Below, one piece after another: positions 3,162 through 26,283 of a DNA stretch of 26,283 bases. Under the pieces are notes generated by a model, which saw only the letters and a program-made list of their open reading frames with translations, was not told the origin of the DNA and searched no databases. Origin of the DNA: a virus; IMG/VR virus record IMGVR_UViG_3300032326_000054, positions 1 to 26,283 of that record; one strand, given 5' to 3'. Every line of letters starts with the position of its first letter. Position 1 is the stretch's first letter. A program made the translations under genes and the position numbers.

Positions 3162-4903
3162 TGGCAGATATTAAAACAATTGCTAGACGAGTAGATGCTA
3201 TGAAGCATCGCGCCTGGGAGCGCGACGTTCAAATGGGCAACATCTTGTCTGTGCGTAAGGGTAAGATGGCAGAGGTTTTCCCTGACATGTTCCCGTCAGA
3301 CATGCCTAGCGCCATGATTGCTAACTTTATTGACGTTGCTGCACGTGACCTTGCAGAAGTTCTTGCACCACTGCCTTCGATTAACTGCTCTACTACTAAC
3401 GTTACATCTGACCGCGCTAGAGCTTTTGCTGATAAGCGTAGTATGATTGCTAACAACTATGTTTATACATCACGCCTACAGACTCAAATGTATCCTGGCT
3501 CAGACCAGTTCTTTACCTATGGATTCTTGCCAATCCACATTGAGCCTGATTGGGACAGTGATTTGCCACGCATCCGCGTGGAAGACCCTATGGGTGTCTA
3601 CTATGAGCGTGACCGATTTGGTCGCCTAGTAGCATATGCAAAGCGCTACAACAAGAGCATTGGTGAACTTGTTAATGAGTTCCCTGAGTACACTGGGGCT
3701 ATTCTTGGACAGCAAGGCTTTGACCAGAATCTAAATGCAGATATTGAAGTTATCCGCTATATGGATAAAGATTCAATTGTTTTATATGTACCATCACGTC
3801 AGAATCTTGCTCTTACACAGGCTAAGAACCCAATGGGCAAGATGACTGTTTTGATTGCTGAACGTCCATCTATTGATGGAAACCCACGCGGACAATTTGA
3901 CGATGTTGTATTCGTACAACTTGCTCGTGCACGTTTTGCTAACCTTGCTATGGAAGCGGCTGAAAAGTCAATCCAAGCCCCACTTGTTGTACCTGATGAT
4001 GTGATTGACCTGCCTATGGGTCCTGATGCAATCATCCGTACATCAAATCCTAATGGTGTTGGGCGTGTCCGTCTGGATATTCCCGCAGCTACTTTTCAGG
4101 AGCAATCAGCACTCCAATCTGAATTACGACTCGGTGCTCGATATCCCGAAGGTAGAACTGGAAACATTGACGCTAGTGTTATCACTGGTCAAGGTGTCCA
4201 GGCACTTCTTGGTGCTTTCGATTCTCAGATTAAGGCTGGTCAAACAGTACTTGCTGAGATATTGGAAGATGTCATCAAGCTGTGTTTTGAAATGGATGAA
4301 CTCCTTTTCAACAAGGATAAGAGTGTCAGAGGTGTAGCACAAGGTACGCCGTACGAGTTAAAGTACATGCCAGGCAAGGACATTAAGGGCGATACTTCGG
4401 TAGAAGTCCGATATGGCTTGATGGCTGGATTAGACCCTTCTCGCGCCCTGATTTTCTCTCTCCAAGCACTAGGTGCAGACCTAGTATCAAAAGATTTTAT
4501 TCGTCGTGAATTACCATGGAGCGTTAACGTTACTATGGAAGAACAGCGTATTGAAATCGAAAAGATGCGCGAGAACCTTACTGCAGCAATCACTGCAAGT
4601 GCGCAAGCAATTCCTGCTATGGCCGCACAAGGTCAAGACCCATCTAAGCTAATCCAGAATATTGCTGACGTTATTGAACGTCGCCGTAAAGGGGATAGTA
4701 TCGAAGCTGCTGCGTTGGCAGTGTTTAAGGTTGAAGAACCTGAACAACCGATGCAGCCAGAGATGGCTCCGCCAGGCACACAAGGCCCAGTTGAGCAAGC
4801 GCCCCCGTCCCCAGCGGCTCCTGGACAACCTTCTGGCGGAGCCCCTCAACAACAGGGAGCACCAGCAGATTTAACAACAATGTTAGCAGGTCTAGGAGGA
4901 TAA
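3161..4903 (+). CDS. portal protein
   Basis: The likely role is the dodecameric ring at one capsid vertex through which DNA enters and leaves. Evidence: position just after terL, length of 580 residues, a mixed alpha/beta body with an acidic-basic pattern typical of portals, and a disordered Pro/Gln/Ala-rich tail (about residues 525-580). The N-terminal part contains a long helical stretch leading to MIANFIDVAARDLAEVLAPL, and a middle stretch GFLPIHIEPDWDSDLPRIRV resembles the wing region of podovirus-type portals. No catalytic motif is expected. The start overlaps the previous stop by one base. The last codons contain AGGAGG, which forms the ribosome site of the next gene. Confidence 0.85.
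   Translation: MADIKTIARRVDAMKHRAWERDVQMGNILSVRKGKMAEVFPDMFPSDMPSAMIANFIDVAARDLAEVLAPLPSINCSTTNVTSDRARAFADKRSMIANNYVYTSRLQTQMYPGSDQFFTYGFLPIHIEPDWDSDLPRIRVEDPMGVYYERDRFGRLVAYAKRYNKSIGELVNEFPEYTGAILGQQGFDQNLNADIEVIRYMDKDSIVLYVPSRQNLALTQAKNPMGKMTVLIAERPSIDGNPRGQFDDVVFVQLARARFANLAMEAAEKSIQAPLVVPDDVIDLPMGPDAIIRTSNPNGVGRVRLDIPAATFQEQSALQSELRLGARYPEGRTGNIDASVITGQGVQALLGAFDSQIKAGQTVLAEILEDVIKLCFEMDELLFNKDKSVRGVAQGTPYELKYMPGKDIKGDTSVEVRYGLMAGLDPSRALIFSLQALGADLVSKDFIRRELPWSVNVTMEEQRIEIEKMRENLTAAITASAQAIPAMAAQGQDPSKLIQNIADVIERRRKGDSIEAAALAVFKVEEPEQPMQPEMAPPGTQGPVEQAPPSPAAPGQPSGGAPQQQGAPADLTTMLAGLGG
4894..4899 (+). promoter_or_regulatory. strong SD embedded in the portal 3' end
   Basis: AGGAGG lies inside the last codons of the portal gene, five bases before the GTG at 4905. 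It supports the GTG start of the next small gene. Confidence 0.7.
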
Positions 4904-4904
4904 A

Positions 4905-5135
4905 GTGGCAACTCGCAAAAAGCGCGTAGTAACAGTAGAAACCAACGAATATAATCGTTTGGAAATGTACTGTATCTGGCTTAACGAGTTCTACAACTCG
5001 CTGCTAAAAGCAGGGTTCAAGCATGATGTTGCGCTTGCCTTGATTATAGAAAAAGATTCATATCCTGATTGGGTTGAATGGAAAATCCCAACAGACGCTG
5101 ATATTTCAAAATACATGGATGAAGATGAGGACTAA
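4905..5135 (+). CDS. small conserved-looking phage protein, unknown function
   Basis: This 76-residue protein starts with GTG behind a perfect AGGAGG. It has a basic N-terminus (ATRKKR), an amphipathic helical middle rich in Trp/Tyr (YCIWLNEFYNSLLKAGF), and an acidic end (KYMDEDED). I recognise no domain. Its place between portal and the internal virion genes suggests a small structural or assembly factor. The next gene starts two bases after the stop. Confidence 0.75.
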   Translation: MATRKKRVVTVETNEYNRLEMYCIWLNEFYNSLLKAGFKHDVALALIIEKDSYPDWVEWKIPTDADISKYMDEDED

Positions 5136-5137
5136 AA

Positions 5138-5560
5138 ATGGCAGAGGTAGTTTCAGGAGTTGGTAAAAACTCCAGTCGTACTGACAAAAATCTTAGTGCT
5201 CGTGTACAGCGTGTAGTTAATGATGCAAAGATTCAGAACGCTCCTGGTGGAGCGTACTCAGACCGCTCACAGCTAACTAATCTTGCACAAGGTGCGCCTA
5301 CTGATGTTCCTGTAGCAAATCCTATGAATGGTGCTACTCCATCAATTCCAGTAACTACAACAAATGTATTTGCACCTGGAAGTATTGATAAGCCTTTATC
5401 TGATGGAGCTCCTGGTGGACCTGGAAGTAACGTTAGCACACAGATTCCTGTAGATGCTGTAAACCCAGACTCAATTTTTATTCGTGCATTAGCTAGAGCA
5501 AACCCTACATCTCGTCAACTTCTTATGATGGTGGAAGCCTATAACGAAATGGAAGGCTAA
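5138..5560 (+). CDS. Pro/Gly/Ser-rich small protein, unknown function
   Basis: The product has 140 residues. Residues about 30-110 are low-complexity (Gly, Pro, Ser, Thr, Asn) and probably disordered. The C-terminal ~30 residues form a likely helix (FIRALARANPTSRQLLMMVE). I do not recognise a family. GAGG at 5127-5130 precedes the ATG. The stop abuts the ATG of the following giant gene with no gap, so the two are probably translated together. It may be a linker or assembly factor for the large protein; this is inference from position only. Confidence 0.7.
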   Translation: MAEVVSGVGKNSSRTDKNLSARVQRVVNDAKIQNAPGGAYSDRSQLTNLAQGAPTDVPVANPMNGATPSIPVTTTNVFAPGSIDKPLSDGAPGGPGSNVSTQIPVDAVNPDSIFIRALARANPTSRQLLMMVEAYNEMEG

Positions 5561-8500
5561 ATGGCAGACAAGCTACCAGCCATTAAGCAGACTCCTGCTG
5601 ACCGTATGATTGCTATTCAGATGGGCTCTCTAAAGCCTTCTGATTACGATAACTTTAATAATATTACCAGTAAATATCCTGGAATCAGTAACGACCTTAT
5701 TTTATCAATGGTGCGTTCTGGTCTTACAGCAGATACTCCTGGACTTGACAAGATTGCTACTATTGACGGTATTGCTGCCCTCAAAGCAGACAAGTTTAAT
5801 GTCGATAAAATCAAGAGTACAGTAAAACCTAACCGTGGAATCCTTGGTACTTTGGCAAATGCTTTTGATGAAGCAGTTTATGACCCATTCAAGGGCTTTA
5901 CGCGACTAACTTTTGCTGCACTTCGCTCACCTTACGATGCTGCTACTACTTTTGCACGTAATACTACTGCAGTTATGCGTGGTGAAGAGGGTGCTGGACA
6001 GCAATTTGTTGATGACTTGAATCCTTTTACTGGTTTACTCTTTGGCGAAAACACTCTTTTAGGTCAGACAATACGTTCTGGTGCACGTGGAACTGGTTCT
6101 GGTTTCTTTATCACGCCTGAAACTAAGATTGGTAAAGAGCAAGCACGTAGAATGGCTCAATACGGCAAAGTTAATGGTAAATCATACACCATTGGTCGCG
6201 GTTTCTTCAATGGTATTGGCATGAATCCTAATAGTAATGCCTACAATATCATGTCTGGTATTCTAGATGCTACACTTAATATTGCTGCTGACCCAACTAC
6301 TTACCTTGGCCCTGGTGCTGTAACTAAAATTGTTGGTCAAAGCAAGAAAGTTGCGGGATTTGCTAACGATGTTGCTGATTTAACTAAGGCTAACTTTGAT
6401 TCTCTTGCAAAAGAGGCTATTGATGACCTTGAAAAGACTAATCAGATTGTACGCGATAAAATAACCAAGAAGATTTCTAGCCAATTCAAGCGTTATGCTA
6501 ACAATTTTAAGTCTAAAGAACAAGAAATTATTGCAACTGAAAAGCAACTTGTTTTACAACAGGTAAAAACTACCTCTAAGATTCTTAATACTGAAAAGAA
6601 AGTCTTTGCACTTGATGCTGCTGACGATACAGTTAAAGGAACTCTTGCTCCAAACTCTGTAGCTGAGTGGTTTATATCAAATCCAAAGAGTCAAACAGGT
6701 GAGCTTACAGAGGCAATCGACCTTCTTTCTGCAGATATGAAGAACACTGGTGGATTCTTTGATGGTAATATTATACTTGATGAAGTACCTCAGTATGGAA
6801 AGATTAGCGTTGGAGCACATGGTCTTGATGAGTATGTAGTTACTGCTAATAGTACAAAGGGATTTAAACTTCTCGATTTAGCAGATGACTTTACAAAAGC
6901 TGATGGTACTACACGTGTAATAGAGAGTTCTCGTCGTGCTAAGTTAGCGGACGCTCTTGATAAACTAGGCAAGAATGCATCTGACCCAGATTTTAAAATC
7001 TACAACGAACTAGCTACTAATCTACGTGATGGTGTCGCAAATCTTGATGGATTTGTAGGCTCACTATTTGCAGTAGGAGATGAGCTTGTAGCAGGTAAAA
7101 CTCTAGGTTCACTTATTGGTGATATTGCCCAGTATAAAAACCCTGCAGTTATGGCAAATATTGTAGATGCTGTAGAAGATATTTGGAAAGTAGACGGCTT
7201 TTCGAACATCCGTTCGATTTATGGCAAAGAAGGCGGCGTAGTTATCACCAAGAGTGAAAAACTTGCTGCTACTCGTGCAGAAGTAGGCAATGCTGCAGCA
7301 GAATTTGCTGACCCAACCAACCTTGGTCCTAATGTAATGAAGTTACTTGACTCTATTCAAGATACAAAGTCTTCACTTACTGCTCGTCAAAATGAACTAG
7401 ACGAACTCGTTAATAGTCAAATTGACCTTGAGGATAAAGAAAACTGGTTTAAGTTGCTACGCGAAAAAGCACACGGAGACCCAGATATTCTTCGTGAACT
7501 TATTCAAGACCCCAACAACTACGGTATCAAGAATCTTCTTAAACTTGAGCTTGAGATTGCAGATAACAATGTGCTACGTGAATCTATCCGTGCTCAAATT
7601 GGTATCACAGATAACTTTATGGGTAATGTTGGCGAAGACTTTTCTAAGCCACTCAAGTTCCTATTAGGACGTCAGTTCCAGCCTATTGGCGAGTTTATTG
7701 CTAAAGAAACAGACCCAGTAAAGTTGCGCCGTTTATTTGGTCGTAAGCTTGATGACCGTATGATTATGGAGCTGACAGAAGCTAAGTCTGCTGACGATGT
7801 ATTTAAGGTATTCCTTAATCAGTTCGTTCCTGGTGGAGACCCATTAAAGATTAAAGAGTCTATTTCTGCTGGTGTTAAGATTGCAACAAGTCCTGTTGCT
7901 CGTATGATTCCAGCAGTTAATTTACGCGCTATTAAGTATGCCGAAGATATAAACAAGGCACTTGGCCGCTTTTACATTCGCTCTACAGCGCTGAACCTTA
8001 ATGATATTACTGGTCTTAATAACGGTATTGAAGACTGGATGAGTTCTGCTGGTCTAAAGGGCATTATTCGTAAGCCAATGCAAGAAAAAATTATTGCTGA
8101 TACACAACGCGCTGTATTTAAGGCTACTACTAATGCTGAACGTGCTGCTGCTGTATCTAATGGCGTAGGTAAGCTTATTGATGAAGTAGGTAATGCACTT
8201 GGACTTGATGCAGCTTCTAGAGAAGTTTTAAAGAACGCAGCAAAGATTAATGGTGCTCGTGAGTCAATTATTGAATCTTACTCACTGAATAACATAACTG
8301 GTAACAAGGGTGCTGGTCTTGTAATATCTGGTGGTGAAAGTGTACGTCTTGAAAAAGGTATTCTTGAAGCACAGCTAGTTCAGGATGTAATCAATCTTCC
8401 AGATACACGTGCTTTGAATAAGGTTGCAGTTTCATTAAAAACTAACATACCTTTGTATGGTACTGCTAAAGCACTAAAGGTTGCTGCAGAAGAAGCAGGC

Positions 8501-11371
8501 GACATATGGCGTACAGCACAGCTAGTTGGACGTATATCTTATATTGCTCGTAACGTTGCAGAAATGCAAATGCGTCAGTTCTTCTCAGGTCACATGAGCC
8601 TATTCAATAACCCTATTGGTTTTATCTCAATGGTTATGGCTAACCCAGAGGGTACACTAATACAGAAGAAGCTTGCTAACCGTTCAAAATATGGAGTTAA
8701 TGCTCTTGGACAGTACTGGAAGTCTACTGATGCAGAAGTAGAACTATCTGATTCTCTTATTGCTCGTATGGGTATTCTTCGTCAGGAATCTGTAGGTGAC
8801 TACAGCAAGGCTAGCAGAAACGCTACTATCTTCCGTGCATACGAGGATATCACTACAGAGCATCCAGAGTTCTTGCAAGGATTAGCCTGGACAGCTAACA
8901 GCTTCTCATCAGATAAGTTCATGCCTGATGTAATTCGAGTCATGCAAAAAGGAACTAAAGAAGCTCAGGTAGCTTATGTAGATGAACTTGTTAAAACCTT
9001 TGATGAGCCAGGAAATAGATTAAAAGAATTCGCTTCTGCTATTTTTGAAAACAATGAGGGAATGCGTCAGATTCTTCTCAAGAATCCGTTTAAAGAAACT
9101 GGTCCTGGAGTAGTTGCTGATAACATTAACAAAGATAATATCCTTATCTGGCTCTTTGATGTTAATCAACCAGACAGCGTTGCTGGACAGTTAAATATGT
9201 TTGCTGGTCAAGGTTCAAAGCGTAATCAAATTCTTGACCTTATTCGAGATGGACAGGTTAAAGTTACTACTGCCAGTGGCAAAGTAATTACTATCAAAAC
9301 TCCTTATCGTCAAAAAGGACTTACAAGTGAACAAGTAATCCAGGCTGAGAAAGCATTTTCTCGCCAGATAGCTAAGTTCTTTAAGCCAGAAGAATTAACT
9401 GGCTCTGTCGTAAAGAACATGACTGAAAAAGCAGTTCACGAAGGAAATACAAAAGTAATAAAGCAGTTTGTTGATTGGTTCTTTGATAAGTCTACAATAG
9501 TAGAAAACAAGTTGAACTTTGGACCAGAGTTTGATGTTGCATATTGGGACTTTATTGTAGGATATGCAGATATGCTTGATACTCCATCTCTTAAAGAACT
9601 ACTTAGAAACGCTAACAAGGCTCTCGCTCCTACCTCAAAGGGTGGAAGAAAGCCTATTGGACGTGTTCCAAAGCAACTTCGTGTTTTAAATAATACTATT
9701 AAGAGACGTGAAGCTAACCCTAATTATGTACATAAAGGTGGAACAACGCTCAAGACTCTTGATTCAATGGCTGCAGAACAAGCTTCTAACTATGTTAAGG
9801 AACTGTTCTACGATGCTGGAAAACAGAAGCAGTGGGCAAATGCATACCGCTTGGTAGCACCGTTTGCTCAGGCTCACTACAATACGCTTGCTAAGTGGGG
9901 CCAACTTACTTGGTCAAATCCTGTTCCTATCTACAGAGCTGGTAAAGCCTTTGATGCTCTCACAAAAGAAGGCACAGGAGCTATCTATGAAGCTACAAAT
10001 GTTACATATGATGACAATCAGGGCTTCTTGTACAAGGATGAAGGTTCAGACCAGTTAAAGTTTAAGATGCCTATCGTTGGTAGCATACTTGGTGCTTTAG
10101 CCGGTGGTAATATTAATATGAAGGATGCACTGCAGATTACTTCTCCTGTGCAGTCTCTTAACCTTGCATTTGGTTCTGTGAACCCAGTTGTTCCAGGATT
10201 CGGACCTGCTATGTCTTTGGCGTATATAGCCGCTGGACGCAACACAGCATTTGGACCTATGGATTCAATTCTGAAAGACGTATTGACTCCATTTGGAGAA
10301 CCAAAGACTGCAACTGATATTATTTTTCCATCATGGCTCAAGAAAACATCTGCTGCTATACTTGGCAACGATGCAACAACACAGCGTGGTGTTAAAGACT
10401 GGGCATCATATCTAGCATCTACTGGTAAGTATGGAGATAATCCATTTGCTACAGATGCTGAACGTACACGTTTATTCAATGATGCAGAAAAACTTGCTCG
10501 TAATATGAACATAGTCGGTGCTCTATTCCAGAGCATTTCGCCAGCAACTCCTATTCAGGAAGTGCTTGCTAGCATTAAGACTCCTAACAACAAGAAGAAC
10601 TTCATTACAATGACTCTGCTTTATAAAGAGTGGAAGAACGTTAATGATAAGCATCCAGGAGACCGCAATGCAGCAGTAACTGAGTTTGCAGATAAATTTG
10701 GTATTGAAAATCTATTGATTGCTGTAAGTGAAACCACACCAGGAACTTCTGGTTCTGAGGATGCTTGGTCATTCTTGAATAACAACCCATCTATGGTTGA
10801 TAAGTATGCAACACCTAGCGGTGACATTGTTCCTTATTTCTATCCTGGTGGAGAGTTCTCTCTCAAATATTACAACTGGCAGAAGAAGGTCGGCTCACGT
10901 CGCCAACTATCTACAGATGAAATTACTCAAGAGTCAGAAGGCATGGTTTATTCAATGCTAAAAAGCCAGCTTGCTGAAAAGCAAATTGCTGGTGGGTACA
11001 CAGATTTCTGGTACAACGAGCAACTAGCTATGCTTGATAAGCAGTTTACTGCTCGTCCTGGAGACGTTATCATTACAGGTGTTAATGACCAGAAAGTTGC
11101 AAACATTGGACTTGCACTGCAAGAGCCTGCCTTCCAGAAGTCTCCTGTGTATAAGCAAGCCTCAGAGTTCTATGCGAAGTTCGACCAGTTTAAGAAAGTT
11201 CTTAACGATTTTAAAGTTACAAACTATGCCGAACTTTCATCTAAGGGTGGAGTTCCAACATTGATGCGTGATGAACTCATTGTATTAGGAGAAAAGTTAA
11301 TGACAGAAAACCCAGAGTTCTCTCGTATGTACTACGGAGTGTTTGCTGGACTATTAAGGGAGAATAAGTAA
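5561..11371 (+). CDS. giant virion protein, probable internal/DNA-ejection protein
   Basis: At 1936 residues this is the largest gene in the window, and nothing interrupts it. I do not recognise a catalytic domain: no lytic transglycosylase, protease or ADP-ribosyltransferase signature is evident by eye. Visible features include a Lys/Glu/Gln-rich likely coiled coil at about residues 287-347, long helical Ala/Lys/Asp-rich stretches, and more hydrophobic Gly/Pro/Phe-rich segments near 1000-1030 (FFSGHMSLFNNPIGFISMVM) and 1500-1600 (IVGSILGALAGGNINMKDAL onward). Giant mostly helical proteins next to structural genes in podoviruses (T7 gp16, N4 virion RNA polymerase) are carried in the capsid and injected. 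I infer a similar role. It shows no polymerase motif that I can identify. The stop overlaps the next ATG (TAATG). Confidence 0.75.
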   Translation: MADKLPAIKQTPADRMIAIQMGSLKPSDYDNFNNITSKYPGISNDLILSMVRSGLTADTPGLDKIATIDGIAALKADKFNVDKIKSTVKPNRGILGTLANAFDEAVYDPFKGFTRLTFAALRSPYDAATTFARNTTAVMRGEEGAGQQFVDDLNPFTGLLFGENTLLGQTIRSGARGTGSGFFITPETKIGKEQARRMAQYGKVNGKSYTIGRGFFNGIGMNPNSNAYNIMSGILDATLNIAADPTTYLGPGAVTKIVGQSKKVAGFANDVADLTKANFDSLAKEAIDDLEKTNQIVRDKITKKISSQFKRYANNFKSKEQEIIATEKQLVLQQVKTTSKILNTEKKVFALDAADDTVKGTLAPNSVAEWFISNPKSQTGELTEAIDLLSADMKNTGGFFDGNIILDEVPQYGKISVGAHGLDEYVVTANSTKGFKLLDLADDFTKADGTTRVIESSRRAKLADALDKLGKNASDPDFKIYNELATNLRDGVANLDGFVGSLFAVGDELVAGKTLGSLIGDIAQYKNPAVMANIVDAVEDIWKVDGFSNIRSIYGKEGGVVITKSEKLAATRAEVGNAAAEFADPTNLGPNVMKLLDSIQDTKSSLTARQNELDELVNSQIDLEDKENWFKLLREKAHGDPDILRELIQDPNNYGIKNLLKLELEIADNNVLRESIRAQIGITDNFMGNVGEDFSKPLKFLLGRQFQPIGEFIAKETDPVKLRRLFGRKLDDRMIMELTEAKSADDVFKVFLNQFVPGGDPLKIKESISAGVKIATSPVARMIPAVNLRAIKYAEDINKALGRFYIRSTALNLNDITGLNNGIEDWMSSAGLKGIIRKPMQEKIIADTQRAVFKATTNAERAAAVSNGVGKLIDEVGNALGLDAASREVLKNAAKINGARESIIESYSLNNITGNKGAGLVISGGESVRLEKGILEAQLVQDVINLPDTRALNKVAVSLKTNIPLYGTAKALKVAAEEAGDIWRTAQLVGRISYIARNVAEMQMRQFFSGHMSLFNNPIGFISMVMANPEGTLIQKKLANRSKYGVNALGQYWKSTDAEVELSDSLIARMGILRQESVGDYSKASRNATIFRAYEDITTEHPEFLQGLAWTANSFSSDKFMPDVIRVMQKGTKEAQVAYVDELVKTFDEPGNRLKEFASAIFENNEGMRQILLKNPFKETGPGVVADNINKDNILIWLFDVNQPDSVAGQLNMFAGQGSKRNQILDLIRDGQVKVTTASGKVITIKTPYRQKGLTSEQVIQAEKAFSRQIAKFFKPEELTGSVVKNMTEKAVHEGNTKVIKQFVDWFFDKSTIVENKLNFGPEFDVAYWDFIVGYADMLDTPSLKELLRNANKALAPTSKGGRKPIGRVPKQLRVLNNTIKRREANPNYVHKGGTTLKTLDSMAAEQASNYVKELFYDAGKQKQWANAYRLVAPFAQAHYNTLAKWGQLTWSNPVPIYRAGKAFDALTKEGTGAIYEATNVTYDDNQGFLYKDEGSDQLKFKMPIVGSILGALAGGNINMKDALQITSPVQSLNLAFGSVNPVVPGFGPAMSLAYIAAGRNTAFGPMDSILKDVLTPFGEPKTATDIIFPSWLKKTSAAILGNDATTQRGVKDWASYLASTGKYGDNPFATDAERTRLFNDAEKLARNMNIVGALFQSISPATPIQEVLASIKTPNNKKNFITMTLLYKEWKNVNDKHPGDRNAAVTEFADKFGIENLLIAVSETTPGTSGSEDAWSFLNNNPSMVDKYATPSGDIVPYFYPGGEFSLKYYNWQKKVGSRRQLSTDEITQESEGMVYSMLKSQLAEKQIAGGYTDFWYNEQLAMLDKQFTARPGDVIITGVNDQKVANIGLALQEPAFQKSPVYKQASEFYAKFDQFKKVLNDFKVTNYAELSSKGGVPTLMRDELIVLGEKLMTENPEFSRMYYGVFAGLLRENK

Positions 11372-14644: not shown

Positions 14645-15832
14645 ATGCCTGATATTTATTCAACTACAACATCTGGTTTAGGTTCCAATCTTGTCACTAT
14701 GGCATACGATAAGTTGATTGAACTCAACCTTCGTTCAGTGCCACAGTTCCGTGCTATCGCGGACAAGAAAATTGGAAACCCAACCCACGATGGTTCTTCA
14801 ATCCGTTTCCAGTTCCACAACGATATTGCTGACACCACAATTGCTGGTGCAACACTCGATGAAACTACAGACCCGGATGCAGTATCACTACCAGCGACTA
14901 CAACTCTTGACGTTTCAGCGCAAGAGCTTGGTCGCGTAGTGCTTCCAACTCGTAAGCTCTCACTTATGTCACTTGCTGATGTTGACCCATGGATTGCTAA
15001 CGCAGTTGCATTCAACATGGCAACAACACTTGATAACGGTATCGCTGCCATCCTTGATGCAGGTACAAACGTTATCCGTGAAGCTGGCGGAGCTCTTTCA
15101 ACAACTGCTGCTAAGACTTCAATCGTAGCATCAGACACATTCAAGGGACGCGACGTTCGTTACGCTGTAACAAAGCTTCGCGCTGCTAACGTTGTTCCAC
15201 GTGGCGGAATGTATGTTTCATACATCCACCCAGAAGTCTCACACGACCTTCGTACAGAGACAGGTAACAACATCTGGCGTACACCACATGAGTACCAGAA
15301 TGCTGGTCCACTTCTTGCTGGTGAGCTTGGCGCATGGGAAGGTGTCCGTTTCATCGAGACACCACGCATGACCAACTCAATCTCAGGTGGAGACCTAACA
15401 GCACTTGCTACTGCTCCTGCAGTAAGCGGTGTATCTGGTGCATTCACAATCGTCGTTGCAAACGGCGCATTCGGTGGTCTTGCTGAGGTCGGAGATAAGA
15501 TTTCCGGTACAGGCGTTGGAACTGGTGCAAAGATTACAGCAATCTCAGTTGGTACAACAAACACAACACTTACAGTGTCTGTTGCTAACTCAGGAACTGT
15601 TGGAACAAACACACTCACAGTTACACCTGGAGCACGTGTTTACAACACCTACGTACTCGGACAGCAAGCACTTGCTGAGGCAGTATGGAAGGAACCAGGC
15701 ATTGAGTTTGGTAACGTTGTTGACAAGTTGAACCGTTTCCGTCCAGTCGGATGGCACGGTATTATCAACTGGTCTGTTTACCGTCAAGAGGCGCTATACC
15801 GCATCGAGACAGCTTCATCAGTTCGTGCATAA
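14645..15832 (+). CDS. major capsid protein, N4-gp56-like, with an inserted Gly/Thr/Val-rich domain
   Basis: This is the likely shell subunit, 395 residues. Features that recall the N4-gp56 family of HK97-fold capsids are MPDIYSTTTSG at the start, a central GGMYVSYIHPEVSHDLRTETG (188-207) and the C-terminal WSVYRQEALYRIETASS (376-392). Between FIETPRMTNS (236-245) and RVYNTYVLGQQALAEAVW (331-348), residues about 247-330 are a Gly/Thr/Val/Ala-rich beta segment unlike the rest; I read this as a surface domain inserted into the capsid fold. GAAAGAAGG precedes the ATG by about ten bases. The codons are more biased toward C-ending forms than in neighbours, consistent with high expression. Confidence 0.85.
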   Translation: MPDIYSTTTSGLGSNLVTMAYDKLIELNLRSVPQFRAIADKKIGNPTHDGSSIRFQFHNDIADTTIAGATLDETTDPDAVSLPATTTLDVSAQELGRVVLPTRKLSLMSLADVDPWIANAVAFNMATTLDNGIAAILDAGTNVIREAGGALSTTAAKTSIVASDTFKGRDVRYAVTKLRAANVVPRGGMYVSYIHPEVSHDLRTETGNNIWRTPHEYQNAGPLLAGELGAWEGVRFIETPRMTNSISGGDLTALATAPAVSGVSGAFTIVVANGAFGGLAEVGDKISGTGVGTGAKITAISVGTTNTTLTVSVANSGTVGTNTLTVTPGARVYNTYVLGQQALAEAVWKEPGIEFGNVVDKLNRFRPVGWHGIINWSVYRQEALYRIETASSVRA

Positions 15833-19122: not shown

Positions 19123-21306
19123 ATGCCAATAAGAAAATATTCCTCAACTTCCCAGGAAGTAACACTTACTACAGCACTTAGTAACAGTGCGACAACTATG
19201 GTGGTTTCTTCTGCATCTGCTCTACTTAGCGGAATTACTCCAGCATCAGGTGAGACATTTACTGTTGTTATCGACCCAGATACATCTCTTGAAGAAATTG
19301 TAGATGTAACTACTCCTAGTGCTCCAGGAAGTAATACTCTTACAATTACACGTGGCACTGGTGTAGACGGCACTACAGCTATTGCGCACTCTGCTGGAGC
19401 TAAGGTACGTCACATGGCAATTGGCCGTGACTTCCGTGAAGCTAATAGCCACATTGAAAATGTAACTACAGCACACGGTTTGACTATTGCTAACGTGCTA
19501 GAGACAACCGACACAAACATGATTACAACAGCAATGTTGCAGTCTAACGCTGTAACCACAGCCAAGATTACTGATGCAAATGTAACTACAGCCAAGATAG
19601 CAGACTCTGCTATTACATCAGCCAAGATTGCAGACCTTACGATTGCTACAGGTGACATTGCTGACTCAGCTATTACAAGTGGTAAGATTGCAACTGGTGC
19701 TGTAGGCACAGTTAAGATTGATGACCTATCAGTTACTACAGCTAAGATTGCAGATGGTGCTATAACATCCGCTAAGTTGGCAGATGGTGGTATTGGAACT
19801 GCAGACATTGCTGACCTAGCCATTACAACAGGCAAGGTAGCAGACAGTGCTATTACTTCGGCCAAGATTGCTGACGGCACTATTGTCGCAGGCGACATAG
19901 CTGACGGCGCTATTACAAGCGCAAAGATTTTAGATGGCACAATTGTTGCTGGTGACTTAGCCGATGGCGCAGTAACATCTGCCAAGATTTTAGACGGTAC
20001 TATTGTCAACGCAGACATCAACGCTTCTGCTGGTATTGCTTATTCTAAGCTGAGCCTTGGTGGAACTATTACTTCTGCCGACTTAGTAGATGGAACTATT
20101 GTTGCCTCTGATATTGCTAACGGAACTATCACTGCAGCTAAGATGGTATCTGACCCTTATGCTCGCGCTAACCACACAGGCACACAGGCTGCTTCAACTA
20201 TCTCAGACTTTGATACACAGGTACGTACTAATCGTTTAGACCAGATGGCTGCACCTACTGGCTCGGTATCTCTTAACAGCCAGAAGGTAACATCTCTCGC
20301 TACACCAACTGATAACGCAGATGCTGCGACTAAGTTGTACGTAGATACAAAGGTCGCAGACCTGGTTAACTCAGCACCTGGAACTTTAGACACACTCGGT
20401 GAGATTGCTAACGCAATTCAATCAGGTGGAACTGTATACGAGTCATTCGTACTCAAGGCTGGTTCTACTATGACTGGTGCTCTTACACTCTCAGGTGCTC
20501 CTACTAGCAATCTACACGCTGCAACAAAGGCTTATGTAGATACAGTTGCAGGTTCTGCTACAGCTGCTGCAGCTAGTGCTACCGCTGCTGCTGCATCATA
20601 TGATTCTTTTGATGACCGCTACCTTGGCGCTAAGTCATCTGCTCCATCTGTAGATAATGATGGTAACGCACTTCTTGAAGGTGCTCTTTACTGGAACTCA
20701 GTAGACAATGCTATGTACGCTTGGACAGGTTCTGAGTGGGGTTCAATCTCATCTACCGCAGAAATCTATCGCTTCCGCTTCACAGCATCTGGCGGAGAAA
20801 CATCAGAGTCTGGTCCAGATGATAACGGTCTAACCCTATCTTACCTTCCAGGTAAGGAGCAGGTATACCTTAACGGTGTACTTCTTGCTCGCACATCTGA
20901 CTACACAGCTAGTAACGGTACAAGTATCTCATCTCTTGCAGCACTTGCTGCTGGAGATATTCTAGAAGTTATTACCTTTACATCATTTGAAGTTGCCGAT
21001 GCAATTGCTCGAACAGTCTTTGATGCTAAGGGTGACATCCTAGTAGGAACTGCAGCTGACACTGTAGGAAAGTTAACAGTTGGTACTAATGGCTATGCGT
21101 TAATGGCTGACTCATCAACAGCGACTGGTCTTAAGTGGGGCGCTGTATCAGTGTCACCACTTACAGGTACAGGTGGCGACTTAGGCGACACTATTTTTAC
21201 AGGAACAACTGAGCCTTCATCACCGACTACTGGTGATATATGGATTGATGCAGTTCCAAGCACACAAGCAGACCTAACAATAATGAACATTATGGGAGCG
21301 TACTAA
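19123..21306 (+). CDS. long tail fibre with 10-residue repeat shaft
   Basis: The product has 727 residues. The N-terminal module (about 9-100) is beta-rich and ends RGTGVDGTTAIAHSAGAKV; it probably attaches the fibre. Residues 147-341 are about eighteen 10-residue units of the form AKIADGAITS, built from exact 30-base periods from 19561, with one 12-residue unit (YSKLSLGGTITS). Such repeats make trimeric beta-helical shafts. Then come LKAGSTMTGALTLSGAPTSN (about 443-462), an Ala-rich stalk (about 480-495), and a C-terminal part with AKGDILVG...VGTNGYALMADS...TGLKW (about 635-673). Its last codons supply GGGAGC as ribosome site for the next gene. Host-range determinant by inference. Confidence 0.85.
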   Translation: MPIRKYSSTSQEVTLTTALSNSATTMVVSSASALLSGITPASGETFTVVIDPDTSLEEIVDVTTPSAPGSNTLTITRGTGVDGTTAIAHSAGAKVRHMAIGRDFREANSHIENVTTAHGLTIANVLETTDTNMITTAMLQSNAVTTAKITDANVTTAKIADSAITSAKIADLTIATGDIADSAITSGKIATGAVGTVKIDDLSVTTAKIADGAITSAKLADGGIGTADIADLAITTGKVADSAITSAKIADGTIVAGDIADGAITSAKILDGTIVAGDLADGAVTSAKILDGTIVNADINASAGIAYSKLSLGGTITSADLVDGTIVASDIANGTITAAKMVSDPYARANHTGTQAASTISDFDTQVRTNRLDQMAAPTGSVSLNSQKVTSLATPTDNADAATKLYVDTKVADLVNSAPGTLDTLGEIANAIQSGGTVYESFVLKAGSTMTGALTLSGAPTSNLHAATKAYVDTVAGSATAAAASATAAAASYDSFDDRYLGAKSSAPSVDNDGNALLEGALYWNSVDNAMYAWTGSEWGSISSTAEIYRFRFTASGGETSESGPDDNGLTLSYLPGKEQVYLNGVLLARTSDYTASNGTSISSLAALAAGDILEVITFTSFEVADAIARTVFDAKGDILVGTAADTVGKLTVGTNGYALMADSSTATGLKWGAVSVSPLTGTGGDLGDTIFTGTTEPSSPTTGDIWIDAVPSTQADLTIMNIMGAY
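19561..20145 (+). repeat. 30-base tandem repeats encoding the fibre shaft
   Basis: Starting at 19561 the DNA runs in 30-base steps (19591, 19621, 19651 and so on) with synonymous drift between units; one 36-base unit occupies 20041-20076. The unit typically reads [A/G]-K-I-A-D-G-A-I-T-S. These are coding repeats, not CRISPR: there are no conserved repeats separated by unique spacers. Confidence 0.8.
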
Positions 21307-22043
21307 TGCCAATCAAAAGATATAACGGAACCGCCTGGGAAGTCGTCGCAGGTGATGGAGTTGCTGGAGCACAAGGACCAGCAGGTGCTGATGGCTCTGC
21401 ACCATTAACAACCAAAGGTGATTTGCTTAGTAGAACATCTAGTGCAGTTGCACGCCTTGGTGTTGGTTCTAACGGCACAGTTCTTACTGCTGATTCAGCA
21501 GAAACAACTGGCTTAAAATGGGTTACACCTGCAACGAGCGCCAGCGGTTTAACATTTATCACTAAATCAACTGCATCAAGCGTTTCATCTCACACAATTT
21601 CAAACTGCTTTACCTCAACATATGCTAACTACAGAGTTATTTTTAATCTTACAGGAGTACAAAATACCGCAACAGATTTAACCCTTCAACTTACTGTTGG
21701 TGGTACAGCGACAACAAGCGGATATGCTTCTCAAAGATTATTTGCGACAAATACAAGCGTTGTAGCTGACCAAAGCAATCAGGGAACTGACGAATGGAAT
21801 TTTCATTATGTATCAAATGCTTATCCAGCTTCACCATTTGGCAAAATTGAATTTGGAAATCCAAATGTAGCGACAGATTCAAGTTTTACAAGCGAAGGTT
21901 ATTCACGATTTTCTGCTGGTCAATACATTTTTTATAATGCTGGAAATTTAAATAACACAACTCAATATGATGGATTTAAAATCCTGAGTGCAAGCGGAAC
22001 TTTTTCAGGCGATTTCTATGTGTACGGCTATCAGAAGGCATAG
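21306..22043 (+). CDS. second fibre/receptor-binding protein with collagen-like start
   Basis: The product has 245 residues and begins MPIKRYNGTAWEVV, followed by a short collagen-like GVAGAQGPAGADGSA (about 18-32). Next is KGDLLSRT...VGSNGTVLTADS...TGLKW (about 37-73), the same module as the end of the upstream long fibre. The rest (75-245) is a Ser/Thr/Asn/aromatic-rich beta domain, probably a trimeric receptor-binding tip. The start overlaps the previous stop (TAATG). It looks like a tip split off from a fibre. Receptor unknown. Confidence 0.75.
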   Translation: MPIKRYNGTAWEVVAGDGVAGAQGPAGADGSAPLTTKGDLLSRTSSAVARLGVGSNGTVLTADSAETTGLKWVTPATSASGLTFITKSTASSVSSHTISNCFTSTYANYRVIFNLTGVQNTATDLTLQLTVGGTATTSGYASQRLFATNTSVVADQSNQGTDEWNFHYVSNAYPASPFGKIEFGNPNVATDSSFTSEGYSRFSAGQYIFYNAGNLNNTTQYDGFKILSASGTFSGDFYVYGYQKA

Positions 22044-22051
22044 GGAGAATT

Positions 22052-22249
22052 ATGCAAACATCAATTTACGACGCAATTACAGGCGAAATTACAGTTCGCA
22101 ATTTAACACAAAATGAAATAGATGAATTAGAGGCTAAAGCATTAGCTAAAGTTGAAGCTCAAGAAGCAAAAGCAATAGCTAGGTCAGCATTACTTGAGCG
22201 TTTAGGTATTACTGAAGATGAAGCGCAATTACTTTTAGGAGCCTACTAA
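22052..22249 (+). CDS. small fibre-locus protein, possible tail fibre assembly chaperone
   Basis: The 65-residue product begins MQTSIYDAITGEITVRNLTQ, has a helical, charged middle (Glu/Lys/Ala repeats) and ends RSALLERLGITEDEAQLLLG plus AY. The LGITxDEAxLLLG ending is frequent in small proteins encoded just after phage fibres, in my memory. GGGAGA lies a few bases before the ATG. It could be an assembly chaperone or a coiled-coil trimerisation piece; neither is shown by the sequence. Confidence 0.7.
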   Translation: MQTSIYDAITGEITVRNLTQNEIDELEAKALAKVEAQEAKAIARSALLERLGITEDEAQLLLGAY

Positions 22250-22377
22250 TGACTAAAGCACGTGACCTAGCAAATCTTGCATCAACCGCTACAGTAATGG
22301 CGACAGATGCAGAAGTAGCAGCAGCAGTTGCTGCAGCAGATTCAACACCAACCGCATTAATGACAATGGGAGCATAA
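22249..22377 (+). CDS. 42-residue Ala-rich mini-protein (KARDLANLAS)
   Basis: ATG at 22249 overlaps the previous stop (TAATG) and the frame ends TAA at 22375-22377. The product is MTKARDLANLASTATVMATD, then an Ala-rich stretch ending ALMTMGA. TKARDLANLAS is a frequent start of phage tail-fibre segments, so this is either an independent small gene or a relic of a larger fibre. GGAGC six bases upstream supports translation. Confidence 0.6.
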   Translation: MTKARDLANLASTATVMATDAEVAAAVAAADSTPTALMTMGA

Positions 22378-22380
22378 CAA

Positions 22381-22710
22381 ATGCCAACAACATATAAAGT
22401 ACTAGGGCAAGTAGCCCCCTCAGCAACCACAGCAACCACTTTAGATACAGTACCTAGTGCTACTCAGTGCGTAGTATCTACTATTGTTGTATGTAATCGT
22501 GCTGCTACCGCAGCAACATATCGTATTGCTGTTCGTCCTGCTGGTGCAACACTAGCTAATGAGCATTACATTGCTTATGATTCTACAGTAGCTGCCAATG
22601 ATTCAACAATGCTTACTATTGGAATTACCCTTGCAGCAACAGACGTTATCAGCGTTTATGCTTCAAATGCTAATCTTTCATTTAGTGCTTTCGGAAGCGA
22701 GATTTCATAA
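22381..22710 (+). CDS. small fibre-locus beta protein, paralogue of the gene at 23537
   Basis: The 109-residue product reads MPTTYKVLGQVAPSATTATT, then LDTVPSATQCVVSTIVVCN, and ends SFSAFGSEIS. It is beta-strand and Thr/Ala-rich with alternating hydrophobic residues, probably a small sandwich domain. It shares the TVPSAT...STIVV core and the terminal EIS with the 100-residue product at 23537, so the two arose by duplication. It is joined by TAATG to the Gly-rich adhesin that follows, which suggests the pair acts together, for example as base and tip. Confidence 0.72.
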   Translation: MPTTYKVLGQVAPSATTATTLDTVPSATQCVVSTIVVCNRAATAATYRIAVRPAGATLANEHYIAYDSTVAANDSTMLTIGITLAATDVISVYASNANLSFSAFGSEIS

Positions 22711-23507
22711 TGGCTGTATCTAAACTTAATCCTATATCTGGTGCTAAATCAAAATTTTTTCAAGAGTTCACTTCTGGTGCTACATCTTGGACCGCTCCTA
22801 CTGGAGTAACCACTATTGAATGCTTGCTTGTAGCAGGCGGTGGAGCAGGTGGCGGAGTTGGAGGTAGCGTTGCATTTAGTGCAGGTGGTGGAGGTGGAGG
22901 ACAGGTAGTTAAGCAATACTTAACCGTTGTTCCAGGCACTTCATATACAGTAACAATTGGCGCTGGTGGAACTGGTGTTGCTGCTGCTAATGGCAATAAT
23001 GGAGCAAATTCATCTTTTGGTTCACTTCTTGTATGTGGAGGTGGCGGTGGTGGTGGAAGCGTTAACGGAGGCACAATTAATGCTGGTAGCATAGGCAACA
23101 CTGGAACAAATGCTTATGGTGGTAGCAATGCAAGCGGTCAAACTGGTGGCAATGTTGCCTCAGCCGCTCGTTCGGTTGGAGTTGCATTTGGTGGCTCAAG
23201 TGGCGGTCATCCACAAAATTCATCACATTTAGTAGCAACTGGCGGTGGTGGTGCAGGTGGTGCTTCAGCACCAATTGGCTATGCTAATGGTGTTTCAATT
23301 ATGAATGCAGGGTCTGCTGGTATGGGTCTTTATGGCTTTGGCGCTGGCGGCAATGCTGGTCTTGGAAATACTTCTGGACTGAATGGAATTTCCGCACCAG
23401 CAAACAGTGGAAATGGTGGCGGTGGTGCATTTGGAAACATTAACCCTGGAAACTACACTGGCGGTAATGGCGGTTCAGGATACTGCTTAATTACTTGGGA
23501 AGCGTAA
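22710..23507 (+). CDS. Gly-rich adhesin/receptor-binding protein, copy 1
   Basis: The product has 265 residues. A short beta N-terminus with FTSGATSWTAPTGVTTIECL leads into VAGGGAGG and then many Gly-rich stretches to the end, closing GGSGYCLITWEA. Known phage adhesins with poly-Gly type II helix bundles (for example gp38 of S16-like phages) bind bacterial surface receptors with loops between Gly strands; the same type is inferred here. The WTAPTGVTTIE segment is a standard entry to such Gly-rich domains. The start overlaps the previous stop. The complementary strand gives spurious Pro-rich frames. Confidence 0.8.
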   Translation: MAVSKLNPISGAKSKFFQEFTSGATSWTAPTGVTTIECLLVAGGGAGGGVGGSVAFSAGGGGGGQVVKQYLTVVPGTSYTVTIGAGGTGVAAANGNNGANSSFGSLLVCGGGGGGGSVNGGTINAGSIGNTGTNAYGGSNASGQTGGNVASAARSVGVAFGGSSGGHPQNSSHLVATGGGGAGGASAPIGYANGVSIMNAGSAGMGLYGFGAGGNAGLGNTSGLNGISAPANSGNGGGGAFGNINPGNYTGGNGGSGYCLITWEA

Positions 23508-23536
23508 ATAATCAATCGAGAAGAAAGTAGCGACTA

Positions 23537-23839
23537 ATGCCTACAATATCTAAAGCGCTGGCAAGAACAGCGGCAGCAACAAGCAACACAACACTATATA
23601 CAGTGCCGAGTGCAACAACTACAATTGTAACTAACATTGTAGTAGACAACACATCAGGTTCTGCACAGACATTTACAATCAATCTCGATGGAGTAGCACT
23701 ACTTTCATCTGCAGCAATTGATGCTAATGCTTCTGTATTTTTTGATTTAAAGCAGGTCCTTGCTACAACCAAAACAATTACTGGTTCAGCATCGGCTACA
23801 TCTGTTAACTTTCACATTAGCGGAGTGGAGATTTCTTAA
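23537..23839 (+). CDS. small fibre-locus beta protein, copy 2
   Basis: The 100-residue product has core TLYTVPSATTTIVTNIVVDN and ends VNFHISGVEIS, matching the 109-residue product at 22381 in order and spacing of the core motif and the end. The DNA around the stop is also alike in both (GAGATTTC, one base, TAATG). It follows the first adhesin after a 29-base gap and is coupled by TAATG to the second adhesin. Probably a base for the Gly-rich protein; this is inferred from the repeated pairing. Confidence 0.72.
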   Translation: MPTISKALARTAAATSNTTLYTVPSATTTIVTNIVVDNTSGSAQTFTINLDGVALLSSAAIDANASVFFDLKQVLATTKTITGSASATSVNFHISGVEIS

Positions 23840-24714
23840 TGAGTATCTCAGTATTTCCAGCTCCAGTAGTATCTACATTAAATTCTAGTGCTATTACTGC
23901 TGTTTCTCCAAACACTTTATATCAAGCAACTATTAATCTTGAAGCAGCAATCTATACTATTACTTGTGCATCAACAACAATAGCAACAGTAGAATTTTAT
24001 TCTGGTGCTGGCACTTTAGTCAATACAGCAGTTACTTCTTCTGGAACAGTATCGGTTAGCAATGCTTCGGCTTCAGATAGAGTTCGCATATGGACAAATA
24101 CTGGGTCTAACATTCCTGTAACAATTACAAAAACCGCTGCAGCATTAAGCAACACATTTAGCGGAACACTAGATACAGTAACAGCTAGTGGAACTTACAC
24201 TGGAACATCAACATCAGGATTTGGTTATGCCGTTCTTACTGGTGGTGGCGGTGGTGGAAACGGTGGTAACGGTTCATTTGGTCAAGGCGGTGGTGGAGCA
24301 GGCGGAACAGCTGCTAAATTAGTAGCACTGACTGGTTCAATGGCAGTTACTATCGGAGCACGTGGTAATGGTGGAGCACCTGGAACTGCGGGTACTGCTA
24401 GTTCATTTGCTGGAATGACGGCAAATGGCGGTGGAGCTGGTGGCGGTGGAGGCACCGCAACAGGCGGAACATATAACACTACTGGCGGTGGCGGTGGTGG
24501 AGGTGGTGGAGTACCTGGTGGTAATGGTGGCTCTCCTTCTACAACTTATACATTTGTTGTTTCAACAATTGGCACTGGTGGCAGTGGTGGTGGTGACGGC
24601 GGTAGTGGTGGTGCTGCTTCTGGTTATGGCGCAGGAGGCGGTGGCGGTGGTCGTGGTGGAGGAACAGTTGGCGGTAATGGAACTGCTGGCGTTCTTTACG
24701 TACTTCGTTTCTAA
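23839..24714 (+). CDS. Gly-rich adhesin/receptor-binding protein, copy 2
   Basis: The product has 291 residues. Residues 1-110 form a Ser/Thr/Val-rich beta domain lacking in copy 1; residues about 134-291 are very Gly-rich (runs such as GGGGGGNGGNGSFGQGGGGA). An MAVTIGARGNGG segment corresponds to TYTVTIGAGGTG in copy 1. It ends VLYVLRF. It is probably an alternative tip protein for the same fibre or a second receptor. GGT/GGC/GGA repeats make the DNA low-complexity and prone to slippage or recombination. Confidence 0.78.
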   Translation: MSISVFPAPVVSTLNSSAITAVSPNTLYQATINLEAAIYTITCASTTIATVEFYSGAGTLVNTAVTSSGTVSVSNASASDRVRIWTNTGSNIPVTITKTAAALSNTFSGTLDTVTASGTYTGTSTSGFGYAVLTGGGGGGNGGNGSFGQGGGGAGGTAAKLVALTGSMAVTIGARGNGGAPGTAGTASSFAGMTANGGGAGGGGGTATGGTYNTTGGGGGGGGGVPGGNGGSPSTTYTFVVSTIGTGGSGGGDGGSGGAASGYGAGGGGGGRGGGTVGGNGTAGVLYVLRF

Positions 24715-24777
24715 TTAATACATACCCCTGAGTACGGGTCTAAACTGCTCAACTAATTTTTCTATCTAAGGAGTAAC
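24715..24777 (+). promoter_or_regulatory. short gap before the last gene
   Basis: This 63-base gap has a weak ACCC/GGGT hairpin (24724-24739, eight-base loop), an AATTTTTC stretch and AAGGAG (24768-24773), which is the ribosome site of the next gene. The hairpin is too weak to call a terminator. Confidence 0.3.
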
Positions 24778-26283
24778 GTGGCATCACCAGACATTACGGA
24801 GAATATCCCGTTAAACGTAGGTAATCCTGGAACCTCGGGCTTTTGGACTAACAATGCAGAAGACTACGATGTTGCTATTGGTGGATTGCCATTCTTCATG
24901 GCTCCTACAGATGCAGTGCCTTACCAAAGAGAAACTTCTCCTTACCGTAAAGACCAGTTTGATAATGGTAAAGAGCCAGGTGAGCAATCACTTACTGGCT
25001 GGTGGATTCGTTCACAGTCATCTTTCCATGTTGGTCAGGGCATTAACTTCTATGACCCATCTAGCGGTGAGACAACCCCCTACCGTTTTAAGGATTCTCG
25101 TGGCGTAAATGTATGGACAAAGGGACAAGTTACGCTTCTTAAAGATGTGACTACAACTCACATTGTTACTGACGCAGTTACTTCCGATAATTACGATACA
25201 CAGCATTTGCGCTCTATTAAATGGAGCGGAAAAGATGGAGTTCTTGTCCATGATGGATATGACGTAGATAAGATTGACTCTACTGGAACTCAATACGATT
25301 TTGTAAATTATAATGCAGGAGCAGATACTAAGGTATATGCAATCTGTGATGATGGAACATACGCCTACTGGGTAACTAACACTTCTACAAAATTTGAAAT
25401 GTTCAAGAAGTTGCTTACATTAGACAGTAGCACTGCTGGTACTTCTATGATGACTTCACCAACGGTTGCTGTTGTTAATGCCGAAATGGAATTCGTTAAG
25501 GACCGTATTGTTCTTTGCTTGAATAATGCGGTATACGAAATATCACCTACCGCAACAGCGCTTCCTGGAACTCCTGTATATACTAACCCTAATGCAGACT
25601 ATAAGTACACAAGTATTGCCGCATCTGGACCTGCTATCTATACTGCAGGATATTCTGGACTTTATTCTTCTATCCAGAAATACACACTAAGTACTACTAC
25701 TGGCGCTATGCCAACTCTTTCTCAGGCATCTACTGCTGCAGAATTACCTGCTGGTGAGATAGTCCATAAGCTTTACTACTATCTTGGCTATATGGTTATC
25801 GGTACATCTAAGGGTGTGCGTGTAGCTATAGTTAATGACCAAGACGGTTCACTAGGTTACGGACCACTAATTGTCGAAACCAATCAACCAGTTTACGACT
25901 TTGCTGCTCGTGACCGTTTTATATGGTGCGCAACAGGCATAGATTCAACAGACGGTGGTCTTGCTCGTATTGACCTTGGTCAAACTATTGAAGGAGAGCC
26001 GCTACGTTTTGCATGGGCTTATGATTTACAATATGCCCAGGCATTAAAGCATCCAACAACTTCGGTTGCTTTTATTGGAGAGACTAATCGCCTTGCCTTT
26101 ACTACTGCAGGAATTACTGCTGGAACACTGGTTACAAACAAGTCTTTAACATCAAACGTAGCAACACTGACCACATCTACAGCACATGGGCTAGTAGCAG
26201 GTGATTCTGTATGGGTAGAAGGTGTTGGCTCACCTTTTGATAGCACAACTGACCCATACACGGTAATTGCAGCCCCAACTACA
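24778..26283 (+). CDS. large tail protein, probable beta-propeller/nozzle-type, truncated by window
   Basis: It starts with GTG four bases after AAGGAG and stays open for 502 codons to the window edge, so the C-terminus is missing. The product begins MASPDITENIPLNVGNPG. Repeated short motifs of the type AICDDGTYAYWVTNTS, SGPAIYTAGYSGLYSS and DFAARDRFIWCATGIDS suggest a beta-propeller as in podovirus tail nozzle or stabilisation proteins. The visible end contains VATLTTSTAHGLVAGDSVWV, a small beta module common in phage tail proteins. Position after the fibre/adhesin genes supports a tail role; a structural tail protein of another fold cannot be excluded. Confidence 0.7.
   Translation, partial: MASPDITENIPLNVGNPGTSGFWTNNAEDYDVAIGGLPFFMAPTDAVPYQRETSPYRKDQFDNGKEPGEQSLTGWWIRSQSSFHVGQGINFYDPSSGETTPYRFKDSRGVNVWTKGQVTLLKDVTTTHIVTDAVTSDNYDTQHLRSIKWSGKDGVLVHDGYDVDKIDSTGTQYDFVNYNAGADTKVYAICDDGTYAYWVTNTSTKFEMFKKLLTLDSSTAGTSMMTSPTVAVVNAEMEFVKDRIVLCLNNAVYEISPTATALPGTPVYTNPNADYKYTSIAASGPAIYTAGYSGLYSSIQKYTLSTTTGAMPTLSQASTAAELPAGEIVHKLYYYLGYMVIGTSKGVRVAIVNDQDGSLGYGPLIVETNQPVYDFAARDRFIWCATGIDSTDGGLARIDLGQTIEGEPLRFAWAYDLQYAQALKHPTTSVAFIGETNRLAFTTAGITAGTLVTNKSLTSNVATLTTSTAHGLVAGDSVWVEGVGSPFDSTTDPYTVIAAPTT

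Follow-up and report, generated by a model that had tools for sequence, protein, structure and literature searches.

Receptor-binding proteins of phages are known to be modular, and how an adhesin can be exchanged without breaking its attachment to the fibre is usually unclear. In phage Mu, two alternative fibre modules lie side by side in the invertible S/U tail-fibre cassettes. According to the accessible text of one report (PMC12892980), gp38 is a Gly-rich adhesin with variable loops that sits on the end of the trimeric fibre and binds the receptor. Gly-rich tips are already known not only from gp38 but also from gp24 of cyanophage Pam3 and from mycobacteriophage Bxb1. Polyglycine tail proteins are also known to occur in pairs: gp31 and gp32 of phage Mysterious are both predicted to have polyglycine-rich domains in the accessible part of the source (PMC13252515). 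Variable host-recognition islands have likewise been described (PMC3909814).

Here, we analyse a stretch of 26,283 bases, referred to as the window, which is a linear fragment from a tailed phage and carries two tandem pairs of a small protein (S) and a Gly-rich adhesin (A). We consider it likely that this region is a modular tail-tip locus in which the S proteins are connectors that join the C-terminal tail of a carrier protein to the N-terminal tag of an adhesin, in two largely orthogonal versions that would provide two parallel tips. The carrier tails, the adhesin tags, and the gene of the candidate carrier T (22249-22377), on which this mechanism rests, were all missed in an earlier note on the same DNA, which had drawn attention to the two pairs.

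The phage and its variable tail region

Terminase, portal, capsid, SU10-type adaptor, and tail-fibre genes are present in the window, and the gene content of the fragment comprises only packaging and structural functions. Judged by the terminase, the adaptor, and the tail gene downstream of the variable region, the nearest named phages are OX376640 and OX376641 (58.7% identity for TerL, 56.2% for the downstream gene, and 41.6% for the adaptor), which are E7 and F5, two Planktophila phages grown in culture on 'Ca. Planktophila' LanE-43 (PMC10202952). The window groups with these acI/Nanopelagicales phages, with which it shares related terminase and tail genes, and Streptomyces phages of the Beephvirinae are the next relatives. 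Because the closest relatives are Planktophila phages followed by Streptomyces phages, the host is probably a freshwater actinobacterium, and the group relates to phages whose hosts belong to a bacterial group that ranks among the most abundant in fresh water. Among the head genes, a 1936-aa ORF (5561-11371) that matches neither Pfam nor PHROG profiles at E 0.01 probably encodes a large internal virion protein, and residues 256-329 of the capsid protein (14645-15832) weakly match a tail-fibre PHROG and possibly form an inserted surface domain.

All features of the tail region described here lie on the plus strand. The main tail fibre, F (727 aa, 19123-21306), matches the tail-fibre family phrog_38058 (4.7e-85) and ends in the C-terminal tail TQADLTIMNIMGAY (21262-21303). 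Between F and the cassettes are encoded a 245-aa fibre-like protein (21306-22043) with weak matches to phrog_32934 and phrog_33513, a 65-aa protein (22052-22249) with no significant family match, which by its position is possibly the assembly factor of the 245-aa protein, and T, a protein of 42 residues (MTKARDLAN...DSTPTALMTMGA) whose tail occupies positions 22333-22374. The cassettes consist of S1 (109 aa, 22381-22710) with adhesin A1 (265 aa, 22710-23507) and S2 (100 aa, 23537-23839) with adhesin A2 (23839-24714), with coordinates and frames of the tandem pairs as the earlier note had given them. A conserved tail gene (24778-26283, open at the contig end; phrog_11667, 3.3e-89), which shows 56% identity to its counterpart in Planktophila phage E7, closes the variable region.

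S proteins and their adhesins

Both S genes end in GAGATTTC followed by A or T and TAATG (EIS-stop; GAGATTTCnTAATG), as had been noticed before, and in both cassettes the S stop codon and the ATG of the adhesin overlap by 1 nt, which is also the commonest S-adhesin junction in relatives (215 S genes) and accounts for 55/63 junctions in held-out loci. S1 and S2 are 39% identical over 111 columns (BLASTP E 5e-12 in a single comparison), and both match the phrog_1276 profile (2.8e-8 and 1.2e-6, respectively), as do 40 of 40 aligned members of the S family. The likeness of the small partners observed earlier is therefore homology, and the possibility raised at the same time that they might have unrelated folds does not hold, S1 and S2 being one sequence family. 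In a tree of 94 S proteins, the S1 and S2 clades are split by a branch with 100/100 support, and the window S1 is 94% identical to S1 of other phages versus 39% to S2. The duplication that the earlier note had proposed thus stands in so far as the tandem pairs are homologous, whereas a recent tandem copy is ruled out by the tree with its two old clades; judged from the sequences, the duplication of S is ancient. The S proteins of three loci (L018, L026, and L061) were first put in S1 by HMM bit scores and are placed in S2 by the tree, with which their adhesin tags agree. At fourfold sites, where composition alone would produce an agreement of about 0.4, the window S1 is 68-80% identical to that of L002-L008, as against 45-50% for the rest of the region, and is at chance compared with L053, although the adaptor and downstream genes of L053 are closer. 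By this measure, the window S1 has been exchanged horizontally.

S genes also occur in other arrangements. L140 has four of them (3132-9238), and in L138 (2951-3612) and L109 (956-1618) one S2-clade gene is directly followed by another in tandem. A single genome scan yielded one S1 relative in an Aquisediminimonas contig (L166, 5349-8144), where a collagen-like ORF ending in MMMGA is followed by the S1 relative and a 605-aa repeat protein; parts of the S system thus occur outside the phages of Actinobacteria.

The AlphaFold2 model of S1 (pLDDT 92.3) is an eight-stranded jelly roll, and its fold matches with a Z of about 10 include nucleoplasmin and trimeric phage cement (KHP40, Z 9.7), besides a turret protein. 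Since the fold resembles that of many jelly rolls, it does not by itself indicate a connector role. A PDB sequence search with S1 gave chance-level matches only, and the S profile matched no PDB chain.

The adhesins A1 and A2 contain 29% and 28% glycine, respectively. A1 is composed of the tag MAVSKLNP and a Gly-rich body (residues 21-263) and lies above the gathering score of Gly_rich_2 (PF21722, 4e-21; 76.5 bits, cutoff 24.3). A2 has no Pfam match at E 0.1, Gly_rich_2 included, and matches the same PHROG as A1, phrog_863 (8.8e-10). Because of the low complexity, pairwise BLASTP gives no alignment of A1 with A2; a profile-profile comparison aligns 96 columns (probability 96%, E 3.5e-9), a low-complexity match that calls for caution. 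The model of A2 (mean pLDDT 82) comprises an N-terminal tag of the S2 type (MSISVFPAPVVSTL, residues 1-14, 23839-23880, pLDDT <50), a beta sandwich termed the D domain (residues 15-102, 23881-24144, pLDDT about 88), and a predicted Gly-rich receptor-binding domain (residues 109-291, 24163-24714). In VIA-align, the Gly-rich domain matches the Bxb1 tail tip (9d93_Qa, Z 18.4) and the Pam3 fibre (7ypx, Z 17.9) over 167-175 residues, with the next unrelated rows at Z 8.7; S16 gp38 (6F45) is not among the 50 listed fold matches. PDB sequence matches of A1 were at chance level, and those of A2 to designed proteins were discarded as due to its Gly run. The Gly_rich_2 match of A1 and the phrog_863 match and tail-tip fold of A2 bear out the earlier description of both pairs as adhesin cassettes, and A1 and A2 would be tail-tip adhesins that bind receptors. 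A place on the head instead, with S and A serving as decoration or head-fibre proteins, would suit the resemblance of the S jelly roll to phage cement and to the turret protein, but is very unlikely in view of the tail-tip structures matched by A2, the tail-fibre family to which F belongs, and the position of S in cultured Streptomyces siphophages, where it is flanked by tape measure/minor tail genes on one side and by a minor tail gene on the other.

The extra domain of A2 reported earlier is present, with about 88 instead of about 110 residues. By HMM, the same swappable module is found behind S1 in L029, L053, L069, L136, and L140 and behind S2 in L015, L069, L086, L089, L129, and L136. Since it occurs behind both S classes, and hence in the other slot of other phages, it does not follow that the second copy gained the domain, as had been assumed. 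Most adhesins in relatives are followed by a fibre-assembly-factor-like protein of 57-90 aa (L003, L005, L007, L017, and others), which neither A1 nor A2 has behind it in the window. In L144, a 121-aa HNH-nuclease-like ORF follows S2 (5941-6255) in place of an adhesin and is perhaps a homing insertion.

The N-terminal tags of the adhesins vary with the S class. A tag of the F/Y/I-P type (e.g., MGISVFPAPS) follows S2 in 70/81 unique cassettes and S1 in 1/73; the corresponding numbers in held-out loci are 19/27, the tag being missing in 8/27 S2 adhesins, and 0/36. A third type of tag, SLKTG...LLVGN, occurs behind S1 as well as behind S2, and the tag rule is biased by S class and not strict. In the cultured Planktophila phages E7 and F5 (E7/F5, L249 and L250), in which the tail of F is of the S1 type, one S1 is followed by two Gly-rich proteins with this third tag. 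Twelve-residue windows of the bodies carried no S-class signal (controls near chance). The nearest body was located in the other slot for 36/95 adhesins, compared with about 49% expected under free mixing, and over aligned codons the A1 body shares 61% identity with the adhesin in the S2 slot of L018. An adhesin thus consists of a constant tag and an exchangeable body, and the recombination suggested earlier is evident in that bodies do cross between slots.

Carrier tails and S classes

MGA, or a variant of it, is a frequent ending of the ORF that precedes S. S1-type tails have DPTPTALMTMGA-like or DPTPSIFMLMGA-like forms and S2-type tails have TIMNIMGAY-like or ELTLILMGAL-like forms; in the window, the tail of F is of the S2 type (PSSM 27.2) and that of T of the S1 type (PSSM 36.6). 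When loci were retrieved through homology of S, the last 14 residues of the ORF product encoded just ahead of S assigned the S clade correctly in 87/87 cases (leave-one-out nearest neighbour, at most 65% identity), with a mean of 0.49 and a maximum of 0.64 in shuffled controls. For a stronger test, a set of 91 non-redundant complete loci was fetched by adaptor homology without reference to S and contained S1 only in 30, S2 only in 23, both in 22, and none in 16 loci. Here, the tail class of F was S1 in 30/30 S1-only loci and S2 in 21/23 S2-only loci, and F had a tail in 0/16 loci without S; for loci sharing no DNA with the training loci, the values were 27/27, 17/19, and 0/16, respectively. 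Of the two S2-only exceptions, L273 shows a register shift by one residue and L289 has a separate carrier of 56 aa. Among 1094 background ORF ends, none exceeded the tail threshold (best PSSM score 2.1, for the S2 tail). A matching carrier was found for 94/97 S-class occurrences; L224 and L308 have S2 and no detected S2-type carrier. In the two-class loci, F is of the S2 type in 18 and of the S1 type in 4 cases, and the other class is in most of them carried by a small T protein, which precedes S1 in most two-cassette relatives.

The N-terminus of F is constant across the adaptor-sampled loci. Mapped onto the adaptor tree, the tail label requires no fewer than 35 changes, compared with 39 for random labels, and some loci with identical adaptors carry different tails. 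Tail and S have therefore been switched together many times, and this nearly random scatter means that shared ancestry does not explain the match between them.

Phages without S have other fibre ends. FlowerPower has no S in the homologous region, and its homologous fibre ends without the tail. The fibres of the S-less relatives L244 (9906-12730), L302, L344, L347, and L364 share a VIGDIA-like tail, and in L244 a T-like protein after the fibre also ends in VIGDIA; this tail is perhaps a third plug for another partner.

The MGA-type tail might in principle be a translation signal for the next S gene (GGAG of ATGGGAGCA) and not a feature of the protein, as the tail is often located at most 60 nt from the S start and is encoded in the window by ATG GGA GCA TAA. 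However, F keeps its cognate tail at a distance of 175-2231 nt from S in 19/74 loci, and in four of these 19 (L188, L313, L327, and the window) the non-cognate S is nearer; in the window, S2 lies 2231 nt downstream of F, with S1 in between. The tail codons also differ freely at synonymous positions (variation of 0.46-0.48 versus 0.58 in the control), and class-specific residues extend up to 12 positions before the stop codon. A Shine-Dalgarno origin was rejected on account of the distant carriers and the synonymous variation, so that the tail is not an RNA signal and this explanation deserves almost no credence. The co-variation of tail and S denotes functional coupling rather than contact, and the link might run via an assembly step.

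Proposed tip assembly and comparison with known systems

In the mechanism that we propose, S would be a small jelly-roll connector which binds the C-terminal tail of the carrier on one side and the N-terminal tag of the adhesin on the other. S1 would accept carriers ending like DPTPTALMTMGA, and S2 those with TIMNIMGAY or ELTLILMGAL endings. In the window, F would mount S2-A2 and T, as a second mounting point, would mount S1-A1, so that the virion would contain both S proteins and both adhesins in two parallel tips; the length of T, only 42 residues, counts against its reading as a carrier. Two parallel tips, which the earlier note had also considered, explain the locus most economically, since the genome has one carrier for each tail type. 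With constant tails, connectors, and tags and variable bodies, the latter would be exchangeable between phages and slots while attachment is kept.

Two cassettes are not a new arrangement, as had been thought: both S classes are present in 22/91 non-redundant complete loci (about a quarter), in either order, and among 38 non-redundant two-cassette loci of the S-sampled set, S2 precedes S1 in 22 and S1 precedes S2 in 16. Two cassettes are thus common and their order is not fixed. In six loci (L133, L134, L146, and L148-L150), S1 is followed by a 73-aa protein with an S2-type tail and then by S2, which looks like the same parts in series. With slightly more belief than doubt, we extend the proposal to a general rule, in which the choice between S1 and S2 would be set by the last 14 or so residues of whichever carrier is present, a tag on any body would tend to go to the same connector, and tips would be modular and combined in parallel or in series.

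The cassettes could also be alternatives of which one is used at a time or per host. Such a host-range switch would fit the different bodies of the two adhesins and the low-complexity Gly DNA shared by A1 and A2, and the within-genome bodies of L069 and L026, which are unusually alike (rank 1 of 57), are consistent with occasional exchange. In the window, however, the A1 and A2 bodies are no closer than random pairs (29% identity, rank 43 of 57), and one carrier of each type is present. The inversion envisaged in the earlier note finds no support, as 21300-24780 contains no inverted repeat of at least 18 nt; no site-specific recombinase was found among the proteins scanned in the window, the contig being a fragment. 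In contrast to Mu S/U, both cassettes are complete and on one strand, with A1 and A2 intact, as are both adhesins in most two-cassette relatives, and the two orders are fixed states in different phages. A switch is therefore quite improbable, and the preferred reading is that of two tips used in parallel.

Alternatively, S might not be built into the virion as a connector but act during assembly, as a chaperone dedicated to the fibre end and the adhesin. Fibre chaperone genes commonly adjoin their clients, and for Pam3 gp25 the accessible text describes binding to both the TNF-like and the Gly-rich part of the fibre, together with absence from virions (PMC9608196); sequence evidence does not separate the two roles. 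On the other side, a separate assembly-factor-like protein already follows the adhesin in most relatives, S is nearly constant while the bodies vary, although a chaperone of the body should co-vary with it, and phiPsal1_021 is annotated as virion structural, by similarity only. A chaperone function of S is on these grounds unlikely, and we retain the connector as the working model.

Literature searches, which reached few subscription papers, yielded no account of a pairing of tail, connector, and tag in two classes. As a rule by which a short fibre tail predicts the connector gene, this pairing is not clearly contradicted in any of 53 single-class regions and shows few gaps in the others, and it would allow the pairing of tips and fibres to be read from sequence alone in these freshwater phages; the proposed connector role would give a function to the unannotated family phrog_1276. 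The T-even gp37-gp38 tip (Salmonella phage S16 and PP01 gp38, with a PGII sandwich) likewise ends in a Gly-rich adhesin, but, unlike in the window, no two-class small connector and no tail/tag code are described in the accessible sources. Pam3 gp24 shares the fold of the Gly-rich domain of A2 and has a small chaperone gene of its own, gp25; in the accessible part of the report, a single fibre docks by its own N-terminal helices and no connector is described (PMC9608196), and the chaperone, judged by the domain description given there, is not S-like. Bxb1 has Gly-rich domains like that of A2 at an actinophage tail tip, and neither for Bxb1 nor for Mysterious do the accessible texts report a tail/tag pairing; no PDB chain is matched by the S profile. 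A parallel in gene order comes from Camvirus, which has a single cassette with a collagen-like gp22, not Gly-rich in the manner of A1 and A2: gp21 of the cultured Streptomyces phage Saftant is S2-like and located among minor tail genes, and gp22 starts with MGFNVIPAP, so that a member of the S family (phrog_1276) is followed by a tag-bearing minor tail protein, as in the window.
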